DNA from: Saccoglossus kowalevskii
Taxonomy: Eukaryota > Hemichordata > Enteropneusta > Harrimaniidae
Direction: 5' to 3'
Length of the DNA: 21,154 nt
NCBI RefSeq assembly: GCF_000003605.2
Contig: NW_003109087.1
Location: forward strand, 354,837-375,990
Of this stretch, positions 14,401-20,400 are shown in pieces. The notes below the pieces were generated by a model that was not told the origin of the DNA, searched no databases, and was given only the letters and a program-made list of their open reading frames with translations. A program made the position numbers and the translations under genes. Position 1 is the stretch's first letter. Each line of letters starts with the position of its first letter.

Positions 14401-17400
14401 GTTTTCAGTGTTTGTTGTTATCGTGACCCTTCCGCTTCAAATAAAATGAAATTTTTGTTTCTAACATCATAATTTGCAGATGAGGAGGAAGTTATGCATG
14501 ATAGAATACAAGTAAAACCTTTACCAAAGAAATTGGTAAAAAAGGAAGAAACTCCAGTGAAAAGAAAAGAAACAACAGCTTTTGATTTCTTTGGCACAGG
14601 ACCCATACACAGATCTGCTACAAAATCGACGCCAGCATCCAAACGAAAGATGGTAATACTGAGTCTATAGTTGTTATTCTTTCAAACTGACAATGCAATG
14701 TGTGTTGAGACACTTTGTATGTGTTACTGTTAATTCTTCCCAACCCTTTGAATACCATAATTATTCATGCCAAAACATTTTGCAAATTTGTTGTTTATTT
14801 TTCTATAATTTTTTTGTTAATTTTGAACAAGACAGACATCATTTTCTATTGTCTACATGTCTTCGTCAAAACTTTTGAAAAAATATTAAAAACAAATTAT
14901 AAAGGTTTATTTTGTGAAACATGACAGGGTTAAAGGTCAAATGATTATGGGTCAAAGGTTAACTTGTTCCTGCAATGATCATAGGACATTTGCTACATTG
15001 TAGTATCTTGTTCAAAATCAAAGTTTGTCCTAATGAAATCATTTTGAATGACGACTCGTGTATCAGATCACAGACCACAGCAACTTTCAAACTGTTGATG
15101 TTTAATAATACAAAAGATTTGTTCTGACCTGAGTTCAACTCATTCCAAAAAAAGTATAAATGAAATATTGCATGTATAAACTTCAGTATTTTTTGCCATT
15201 TTCAGGCACCAGAAGAAAGTCCTTCAAAATTCAAGAAGGAGAAAGAAGACCATGATGATATAGATTTTATGAAAACATTAGATCAACTGGATGAGGACGA
15301 AGAAGACAGTAAAGTAATGACATGACAACCCCTTCTTTTTGTTAGATGTCTAGGTGATTCAAGATCGAATCCAATAAAATTGGCTTGTATAATTACCAGA
15401 TATTAAAAATGCTTGGGCGAATAAAAGAAGTGTCTCTATGGGTGAAATGATGTCATATTTTAATGATCCAGTAATTAATAAATCCAATTTGATTTTATGT
15501 GTGTTTCTAATGGAGCAAATATCATATTGACTAAAATCTAAATCTTGTTAATGGTTCCTCTGTTTTATGGCTTCATTAAACACAGTAAAAATGTACAACA
15601 GCCAGGCCATGTCATGTTACACTTTTGTGTTTAATTTCAGGAACCTGTACCATGGAGGACATCACCTAGAAAATCTGTGCGTTCGGAAATAACTCCTCAG
15701 AAAATCAAAAAAGGTATTACCATATTCATTCATTAAATTTGTGCGAATGTGGTTATGTAAAAGCCTTGTTTGTGAGTTTGATATACTTATTAAAATGGTT
15801 TGATTCAGTTTTACCTGACTGAAATATGCAAGGTCTGCAGTTGCACTGTAGCAACATAGTTATTATGTGATCGTATACTTGAATGTTGTGAAATAATAAA
15901 TGAATTTAAACAATTGTCTAACAAAATATCTTGATATCTGATTTTACAGAAAAGACCGGGTTGGCCAGTAAACTCGCAAACAAGGCAAGGAATGTCAAAG
16001 TGCTTGTGGAAGACACACCGACTAAATCACCACGGAAACCAACTCCAAGGAAACTTGATGAAAATGGTAGCAAATCTAAAGTAACAGTTATCAAGGAAAC
16101 TCCACAGAAGACACCGACCAAGTCCCAAGCGAAAACTGTAACTCCTAAAAAAACAACTCCTGCCACAGGTGGTGATACTGAGGATGGAACACCACAGGGA
16201 TCCAAGCAAAAGGGAATGTACAGGGCTTATTTAAACAGAGAAGGACCAAAGTCTTTAGGGTCGAAAGAAATTCCTGAGGTTAGTTTTAATATTTTGGTTA
16301 TACATTGTATATGGACTTAGTGAACTATCTTGTACAAAATGCATGTGTTGAGTAGGGCACAATAACATTTAGGTGTTCATTATATCACATCACATTTTTT
16401 CTGTAAAGACTTTTAACCTTATCAGTACCAGTTCCCTCTTTTTATCCCAAATTCACATAATAGTCCCATTTATAGTCTGCACTTACCTTCAGAAGATTGG
16501 AAAAAAGTAGCCAATTTTTTTAAATAAAAACTGAAAAATGACTAAAATTTTATCTTTTGGCTCCAAAATTAGGGTTCATTTCCGGAAATTTTAAAGAATA
16601 TAAGAAAAAAGTGCAGAAAAATTTGGAAGAGAAAGTTTGGTGTTGAAAAGGTTAAGATGTAGAATATAAATTTGTCAATGTCCACACAACTCAAACAATC
16701 CTTGTTGGTTCGAGTATAGACTCCTGCAAACATAATGCCACTTTGGAGAAATTGCATTTTATGGGAACTATTTTTATTGTTATTTTTGTCTCTTCTCATC
16801 AATCAATTATAAGCATGTCAATCAATGTTTAACTATATTTCATGTACATGCATACCTGAGTAAAGTAGTTTCTACGTAACAAACTCTTTGACATGGAAGA
16901 GTTTCAGATTGTAAAAGAATGAGCCGTTTTTGTTATATGATTTTTTTTATATTTGAAACAGTCTTTGCTCTTTCCTCATGAAGCCTGAAAATGTTCATGT
17001 AAATAGACGTGAACAGACCCCTCAGTGTTCATGAAAACAGATGTGAACAGAGCCCTCAGTGTTTATGTAAACAGTTGTGAACAGAGCCCTCAGTTTCCAT
17101 GTAAGCAGACGTGAACAGACCCCTCAGTGTTCATGAAAACGTAAGTGAACAGAGCCTCAGTGTTCATGTGAACAGAGCCTCAGTGTTCATGTGAACAGAG
17201 CCCTTAGTGTTCATGTAAACAGTTGTGAACAGAGCCCTCATTGTTCATGTAAACAGAGCCCTGTGTCCATGTACACAGTTGTGAACAGAGCCCTCAGTGT
17301 TCATGTAAACAGATGTGAACAGAGCCCTCAGTGTTCATGTAAACAGGAGTGAACAGAGCCATCAGTGTTCATGTAAACAGATGTGAACAGAGCCCTCAGT

Positions 17401-20400
17401 GTTCATGTAAACAGTTGTGAACAGAGCCCCCAGTGTTCATGTGAACAGAGCCCTCAGTGTTCATGTAAACAGTTGTGAACAGAGCCCTGTGTTCATGTGA
17501 ACAGAGCCCTCAGTGTTCATGTAAACAGGAGTGGACAGACCTCAGCGTTCATGTAAACAGAGCCCTCATTGTTCATGTAAACAGTTGTGAACAGAGCCCT
17601 CAGTGTTCATGTAAACAGAGCCCTCAGTGTTCATGTAAACAGGAGTGAACAGACCTCAGCGTTCATGTAAACAGAGCCCTCATTGTTCATGTAAACAGTT
17701 GTGAACAGAGCCCTCAGTGTTGATGTAAACAGATGTGAACAGAGCCCTCAGTGTTCATGTAAACAGGAGTGAACAGACCTTTCAGTGTTCATGTAAACAG
17801 GAGTGAACAGAGCCCTGTGTCCATGTACACAGTTGTGAACAGAGCCCTCAGTGTTCATGTAAACAGATGTGAACAGAGCCCTCAGTGTCCATGTAAACAG
17901 GAGTGAACAGAGCCATCAGTGTTCATGTAAACATAAGTGAACAGAGCCCTCAGTGTTCATGTAAACAGTTGTGAACAGAGCCCCCAGTGTTCATGTGAAC
18001 AGAGCCCTCAGTGTTCATGTAAACAGGAGCGAACAGACCTCAGTGTCCATGTAAACAGAGCCCTCATTGTTCATGTAAACAGTTGTGAACAATGCCCTCA
18101 GTGTTCATGTGAACAGAGCCCTCAGTGTTCATGTAAACATATGTGAACAGAGCCCTCAGTGTTCATGTAAACAGGAGTGAACAGAGCCCTCAGTGTTCAT
18201 GTGAACAGAGCCCTCAGTGTTCATGTAAACAGGAGTGAACAGACCTCAGCGTTCATGTAAACAGAGCCCTCATTGTTCATGTAAACAGTTGTGAACAGAG
18301 CCCTCAGTGTTCATGTAAACAGTTGTGAACAGAGCCCTCAGTGTTCATGTAAACAGTTGTGAACAGAGCCCTCAGTGTTCATGTAAACAGTTGTGAACAG
18401 AGCCCTCAGTGTTCATGTGAACAGAGCCCTCAGTGTTCATGTAAACAGGAGTGAACAGACCTCAGCGTTCATGTAAACAGAGCCCTCATTGTTCATGTAA
18501 ACAGTTGTGAACAGAGCCCTCAGTGTTGATGTAAACAGATGTGAACAGAGCCCTCAGTGTTCATGTAAACAGGAGTGAACAGACCTTTCAGTGTTCATGT
18601 AAACAGGAGTGAACAGAGCCACCAGTGTTCATGTAAACAGATGTGAACAGAGCCCTCAGTGTTCATGTAAACAGTTGTGAACAGAGCCCTCAGTGTTGAT
18701 GTAAACAGATGTGAACAGAGCCCTCAGTGTTCATGTAAACAGGAGTGAACAGACCTTTCAGTGTTCATGTAAACAGAAGTGAACAGACCCCTCAGTGTTC
18801 ATGTAAACAGAAGTGAACAGAGCCCTCAGTGTTCAGGTAAACAGAAGTGAACAGAGCCCTCAGTGTTCATGTGAACAGAAGTGAACAGAGCTCTCAGTGT
18901 TCATGTAAACAGATGTAAACAGACCCCTCAGTGTTCATGTAAACAGAAGTGAACAGAGCCCTCTACGTGGCCGAACCTGGCATGAACCTTACCTTATGTA
19001 AGTGTGTGTTGTACATTGTCGGATGTGACGAGTCTAGTAAAGACCAGAAGTGAACAGAGCCCTCAGTGTTCATGTAAACATATGTGAACAGACCCCTTAG
19101 TGTTCAAGTAAAGTTATGAACAGACCCCTCAGTGTTCATGTAAACAGAAGTGAACAGAGCCCTCAGTGTTCATGTAAACAGAAGTGAACAGAGCCCTCAG
19201 TGTTCATGTAAACAGAAGTGAACAGAGCCCTCAGTGTTCATGTGAACAGAGCCCTTAATGTTCATGTAAACAGAAGTGAACAGACCCCTCAGTGTTCTTG
19301 TAAACAGAAGTGAACAGAGCTACCAGTGTTCATGTAAACAGATGTAAACAGACCCCTCAGTGTTCATGTGAACTGTTGTGAACAGAGCCCTCAGTGTTCA
19401 TGTGAACAGAGCCCTCAGTGTTTATGTAAACAGTTGTGAACAAAACCCTTAGTATTCATTTAAACACAAATGAACAGAGCTTGTGTTCATGTGAGCAGAA
19501 CCCTCAGTGTTCATGTGAACAGACCCTCAGTGTTCATGTAAACAGTTGTGAACAGAGCCCTCAGTGTTCATGTGAACAGAGCCCTCAGTGTTTATGTAAA
19601 CAGTTGTGAACAGAGCCCTCAGTTTCCATGTAAACAGACGTGAACAGACCCCTCAGTGTTCATGAAAACATAAGTGAACAGAGCCTCAGTGTTCATGTGA
19701 GCAGAACCCTCAGTGTTCATGTAAACAGATGTGAACAGACCCCTCAGTGTTCATGTAAACAGTTGTGAACAGAGCCCTCAGTGTTCATGTGAACAGAGTC
19801 CTCAGTGTTTATGTAAACAGTTGTGAACAGAGCCCTCAGTTTCCATGTAAACAGACGTGAACAGACCCCTCAGTGTTCATGAAAACATAAGTGAACAGAG
19901 CCTCAGTGTTCATGTGAACAGAGCCCTCAGTGTTCATGTAAACAGATGTGAACAGAGCCCTCAGTGTTCATGTAAACAGAAGTGAACATACCTCATTGTT
20001 CATGTAAACAGAGCCCTCATTGTTCATGTAATAAGAGCCCTCAGTGTTCATGAGAACAGAGCCCTCAGTGTTCATGTAAACAGTTGTGAACAGAGCCCTC
20101 AGTGTTCATGTAAACAGTTGTGAACAGAGCCCTCATTGTTCATGTAAACAGTTGTGAACAGAGCCCTCAGTGTTCATGTAAACAGATGTGAACAGAGCCC
20201 TCAGTGTTCATGTAAACAGGAGTGAACAAACCTTTCAGTGTTCATGTAAACAGAAGTGAACAGAGCCCTCAGTGTTTATGTAAACAGTTGTGAACAGAGC
20301 CCTCAGTGTTCATGTAAACAAAAGTGAACAGTGCCCTCAGTGTTCATGTGAGCAGATGTAGACAGACCTGTCAAAAATTAACTAAAAAGCTGTTAGCAAT

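Follow-up and report, generated by a model that had tools for sequence, protein, structure and literature searches.

A long, single-locus minisatellite in intron 7 of RFC1 of the hemichordate Saccoglossus kowalevskii, most likely neutral and spliced out

The RFC1 gene of the hemichordate Saccoglossus kowalevskii lies within a 21,154-nucleotide stretch of contig NW_003109087.1 (hereafter the window; positions are counted from its first letter), and most of its intron 7 is made up of a tandem array of 34-bp units and shorter variants. We consider it very probable that this long array is a minisatellite of the ordinary intronic kind, restricted to a single locus and nearly neutral. Normal splicing most likely takes out the whole of intron 7 together with the array, with little or no consequence for RFC1. 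As such, the array adds to the tally of intronic minisatellites and is a candidate marker. It is a cautionary case as well, since the occurrence of an array and a disease repeat in one gene says nothing about a common mechanism.

Tandem Repeats Finder (TRF) reported the array as 3,377 bp with a period of 34, 107.8 copies and a score of 2214, while the 68- and 102-bp multiples of the period scored 2639 and 3060, respectively. The array accounts for 80.9% of the 4,174-bp intron. When it was cut at each unit start, 105 anchored pieces were obtained: 64 measure 34 bp, 23 measure 24 bp, and 9 measure 32 bp, another 8 fall within 22-33 bp, and a single piece of 135 bp contains a non-repeat insert. 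These results agree with the initial annotation, which had described a 3.4-kb array (ending at 20370, as against 20368 by TRF) of about 100 units of 34 or 24 bp, making up roughly 80% of a 4.2-kb intron; 87 of the 105 pieces have exactly those two lengths. The pieces fall into 57 distinct types, and the 34-bp units (n=64) have a mean identity of 90.4%, with most variation at sites 16, 17, and 27, followed by sites 5 and 30. Consensus 10-mers occur 1,837 times within the array and three times in the rest of the window (positions 9786, 13746, and 21137), where a Markov-1 simulation (100 runs) gave a mean of 3.5. The array is real and not a product of chance, and with its head-to-tail units of about 10-100 bp, present in excess of chance by both TRF and 10-mer counts, it is a minisatellite.

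The array is also private to the RFC1 locus in the searchable part of the genome assembly (572,110,611 bases in 4,830 contigs), to which all of the following searches refer; although parts of this assembly read N, a family residing at many loci should still have shown there. A 301-base piece of the array used as query had one first-look candidate and gave 14 matches, all within this array. A 25-base pattern from the 34-bp unit, allowing up to 3 mismatches, matched 82 times, 77 of them inside the array, and the remaining five were spread one each over five other contigs with 3 mismatches apiece (reversed control, 3 matches). For the 24-bp unit, 24 of 25 matches fell inside the array (control, 0), and the lone outside match had 2 mismatches and no similarity past the unit. 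No two outside matches of either pattern lay together. Thus the scattering over many loci that the initial annotation had named as the mark of a mobile satellite did not appear, since only 5/82 and 1/25 matches were found elsewhere. Pieces of the array flanks free of dispersed repeats matched only themselves, indicating that only one allele is present in the assembly, and the two flanks had no repeat in common beyond chance, the longest in either orientation being 7 bp (mean of shuffles 7.3-7.4). As an exact pattern, the unit occurred 0 times in viral contigs and 0 times in prokaryote genome contigs, and a 15-mer of it had no match in the full text of papers. Literature searches combining RFC1 with intron and minisatellite, or minisatellites with introns in molluscs or bivalves, returned nothing useful among the papers listed.

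On the plus strand, exons 1-8 share a single frame of 401 codons with zero stops and GT/AG ends (Table 1). Exon 7 matched the assembly only once. The 180-bp exon 8, with both ends in phase 0, matched the Pfam BRCT profile (E 2.3e-13, profile positions 3-60 of 78), and its top PDB matches were 2ebu and 2k6g, both BRCT entries of human RFC1 (E about 6e-25). Since its BRCT domain is nearest to that of RFC1 and its exons are in frame, the gene is, as judged from its sequence, RFC1, and the placement of the array in RFC1 intron 7, just before the BRCT exon, was confirmed. The AAA+ clamp-loader and C-terminal domains of RFC1 would be encoded past the end of the window, in sequence that reads N. The array lies 713 bp from the intron 7 donor and 84 bp from the acceptor and overlaps neither. 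Because these splice sites, the candidate branch points (picked by the yUnAy consensus) and the pyrimidine-rich end are all outside the array, an effect of the array on splicing finds no support in the sequence.

The initial annotation had regarded the array as a striking parallel, most likely convergent, to the human RFC1 repeat of cerebellar ataxia, neuropathy and vestibular areflexia syndrome (CANVAS). That repeat is an AAGGG pentamer in place of the (AAAAG)11 tail of an AluSx3 element in RFC1 intron 2 (PMC6612533). It is likewise an intronic tandem repeat of the same gene; however, it is a pentamer derived from an AluSx3 tail in intron 2, whereas the hemichordate array consists of 34/24-mers in intron 7, and TRF listed no AAGGG/AAAAG pentamer array in the whole window. 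Considering that unit, intron, and origin all differ and the gene alone is held in common, the parallel is weak and finds no support, and to call it convergent adds nothing past the shared gene. Moreover, the human expansion is reported not to inhibit expression, the expanded allele being expressed (PMC6612533), and RFC1 splicing and expression are reported to be unaltered by the repeat in patient neurons (PMC11373605).

A nearer comparison than CANVAS is the variable number tandem repeat (VNTR) in intron 18 of ABCA7, with a 25-bp unit and alleles of about 0.3 to 10.7 kb, whose length is reported to track exon-19 skipping (PMC5954066). Both are intronic minisatellites whose units vary slightly, and they resemble each other in unit size and in overall length. 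By this precedent, the RFC1 array might be a functional VNTR, with inclusion of the BRCT exon depending on its length. Exon 8, in frame by its 180 bp and phase 0 at both ends, could be skipped with the loss of 60 residues and no shift of frame, and the donor-like word GTAAGT occurs once in a unit (at 17128) and once in the insert. However, the ABCA7 VNTR includes the exon-18 splice donor itself (PMC5954066), whereas the splice sites and core 3' signals of the RFC1 intron are outside the array at the distances given above, and we regard such a function as distinctly unlikely. Were exon 8 inclusion in fact tuned by array length, RFC1 would be added to a small set of genes where an intronic array that looks neutral has control over a protein domain.

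Though long, the RFC1 array is of a known order of length. In an arthropod survey that is only roughly comparable, as it used another repeat finder and other thresholds, the longest intronic repeats with units of 1-50 bp are given as 3049 bp for Drosophila melanogaster, 682 bp for Daphnia pulex, and 943 bp for Apis mellifera (PMC3152781). For the genome itself, 14 stretches of 10 kb were sampled, of which 5 were all N (80,920 of 140,000 bases N), leaving 58,089 readable bases outside the stretch that overlaps the window. In these ~58 kb, TRF gave 6 arrays that are 250 bp or longer, and the 5 with at least 4 copies measured 295, 574, 658, 810, and 1,135 bp, all of them in 2 of 8 stretches. Units of 7-100 bp cover about 6% of the readable sample. 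From this small and non-random sample, minisatellites seem to be common in this genome. Those sampled have units of 22, 63, 46, 33, and 120 bp in 25.6, 4.7, 17.7, 19.9, and 9.4 copies, respectively, and one stretch contains three of them in its first 5.4 kb. In humans, CACNA1C and WDR7 have intronic VNTRs of kilobase length with 30- and 69-bp units, unrelated in sequence, for which disease associations have been reported.

The units themselves hold traces of how the array may have grown. Within the 34-bp unit a 10-bp word occurs twice in nearly the same form, as TGTAAACAGN and as TGTGAACAGA, and among the short units (22-24 bp, n=26), 17 have TGTGAACAG or a near form and 9 have TGTAAACAG or a near form. 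Short units therefore keep one 10-bp word or the other, which fits slippage dropping either. On a larger scale, block duplications have occurred within the array: there are 7 identical-unit runs of at least 3 units, the longest repeating 5 units in order at an offset of 806 bp, and neither the number 7 nor the 5-unit maximum was reached in 1000 shuffles of unit order; the longest exact repeat in the array is 201 bp, compared with at most 114 bp in 20 shuffles. A 64-bp match joins the left end (17041) to the right end (19570), a length also reached in shuffles. The units also carry inverted arms (TGTTCA...TGAACA). When folded as DNA and compared with shuffles, four-unit stretches gave z of -2.8 to -3.2 in all 4 of their foldings, two of which used both strands of one stretch, and the other 2 of the 6 foldings, of single units, gave z of -0.8 and -1.0. 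Better folding of four-unit stretches as single-stranded DNA could favour slippage. We propose that a unit of 34 bp (or 24 bp) bearing an inverted repeat became tandem in RFC1 intron 7, and that the array would then have grown as single units, or parts of them, were gained and lost, and also via duplication or exchange of multi-unit blocks inside it, the agents presumably being slippage together with unequal exchange or gene conversion.

Some observations weigh against this account of an ordinary, neutral minisatellite. The array has 27 exact repeats that are 60 bp or longer, a count inside the shuffled range (mean 20.3, maximum 54), so that the case for block duplication is carried only by the longest blocks and the identical-unit runs. 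Adjacent units are no more alike than in shuffled order, and no lag from 1 to 30 passed |z| 2; since neighbours are not more alike, slippage from neighbour to neighbour alone fails to explain the order of units. At 3.4 kb, the array is three times the longest in our small, partly masked, and non-random sample, and by this excess it could be unusual for this genome. Finally, most 34-bp units carry the forkhead-like word TGTAAACA, and with 75 of these in the array a regulatory role is possible.

The last point leads to the suggestion that the array is a homotypic cluster of transcription-factor sites, in which the ~75 forkhead-like words, all on one strand, would serve as an intronic enhancer or decoy. 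The remaining 17.8 kb of the window have 2 such words, also on that strand, and intronic VNTRs are reported to be able to hold enhancer sequences (PMC8096271). All these sites, however, were multiplied along with a single repeat unit; that they are many follows from the array and does not point to selection, and a role of this kind appears highly improbable. We hold it just as improbable that a fast-evolving, lineage-private palindromic array would act as a length-dependent rheostat on RFC1, whether through BRCT-exon inclusion or through the one-strand forkhead-like cluster; if it did, array length would set the level or the DNA-binding properties of the clamp loader.

An assembly artefact, with the true array shorter or longer than assembled, would be conceivable because exact duplications of 201 bp make arrays hard to assemble, and the assembly holds a single allele, the flanks matching only themselves. 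Nevertheless, 57 distinct types among 105 units, their mosaic order, and the internal insert do not resemble a stuttered consensus, and we consider a misassembled length very unlikely.

Intron 7 also holds dispersed sequences, which had gone unmentioned in the initial annotation. The first is the 82-bp insert within the array. When the best 40 of 50 candidates in the assembly were scored, 39 copies besides that in the window showed 80-100% identity. In three fetched pairs, two copies in the same orientation lay 642-657 bp apart, and one pair had a third, inverted copy at the other side. Most likely, then, the insert derives from a mobile element dispersed in the genome, of which it is a fragment. 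A tyrosine-recombinase retrotransposon with split repeats was considered as a candidate parent; the pieces of the parent element had no frame over 173 codons in one and 133 codons in the other. A hammerhead-like core was considered too and dropped, the fold z being 0.1-0.2 on either strand. Rfam searches gave a single match for positions 18900-19110 (E 4.8), outside the insert and taken as chance, and 0 matches at the gathering threshold for the whole window. No inverted repeats were found inside the left flank, the insert, or the right flank. A direct repeat of 19-20 bp flanks the insert. Inside an array such a repeat is ambiguous: it could be a target duplication, and it could just as well reflect a 15-bp loss in the next unit. 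One copy elsewhere in the assembly is 100% identical to it over 83 bp, and this near-identity to other copies suggests that the insert came recently, into a pre-existing array; its block has presumably not been duplicated since.

The second dispersed sequence, a repeat of about 245 bp, resembles a miniature inverted-repeat transposable element (MITE) and had 3,044 first-look candidates in the assembly, of which the best 40 were scored; among the matches listed (42 including the window), identity was 79-87%. A relative occurs in the window near 1813-2036 as two matched pieces with ends placed by eye. The TTAA ends of the 245-bp repeat suggest a piggyBac-type MITE. Together with the array, this repeat brings the repetitive part of intron 7 to about 87%. 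Although the intron does contain the 82-bp insert and the TTAA-ended repeat, we give next to no credence to a mobile or dispersed satellite having landed in RFC1, since the unit itself is private in the searchable assembly (77/82 and 24/25 matches in the array) and the array flanks have no common repeat beyond chance.

Table 1. Features of RFC1 and its intron 7 in the window.
Feature	Position	Strand	Basis or remarks
RFC1 exons 1-6	11494-11496, 12099-12324, 12889-12999, 14480-14652, 15206-15313, 15641-15713	+	start codon inferred
RFC1 exon 7	15950..16278	+	frame and splice ends
RFC1 intron 7, phase 0, 4,174 bp	16279..20452	+	GT donor 16279, AG 20451-20452, continuous frame
Dispersed repeat of about 245 bp, MITE-like, ends TTAACCTT...AAGGTTAA	16412..16657	+	assembly matches; ends read off the sequence
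Tandem array of 105 anchored units, those of 34 bp (TGTTCATGTAAACAGNNGTGAACAGAGCCCTCAG) interspersed with variants of 24 and 32 bp	16992..20368	+	TRF, unit decomposition
82-bp non-repeat insert in the array, piece of a dispersed repeat	18964..19045	+	decomposition, assembly matches
84-bp stretch with 3' splice signals, beyond the array	20369..20452	+	candidate branch points 20378, 20412, 20423; pyrimidine-rich end
RFC1 exon 8, encoding 60 residues that cover most of the BRCT domain	20453..20632	+	Pfam BRCT and PDB matches

Upstream of RFC1, a neighbouring gene transcribed divergently likely has a coding exon on the minus strand at window positions 9997-10158, reading MAVQEQKIGRWSKQALSSGRLGYTLPYQRPASVSP..., for which a Pfam search gave zero matches; the first exon of this neighbour may lie near 11200, a guess made by eye. 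Also upstream of RFC1, at window positions 1492-1602, TRF reported a 51-bp unit in 2.2 copies with 100% match.

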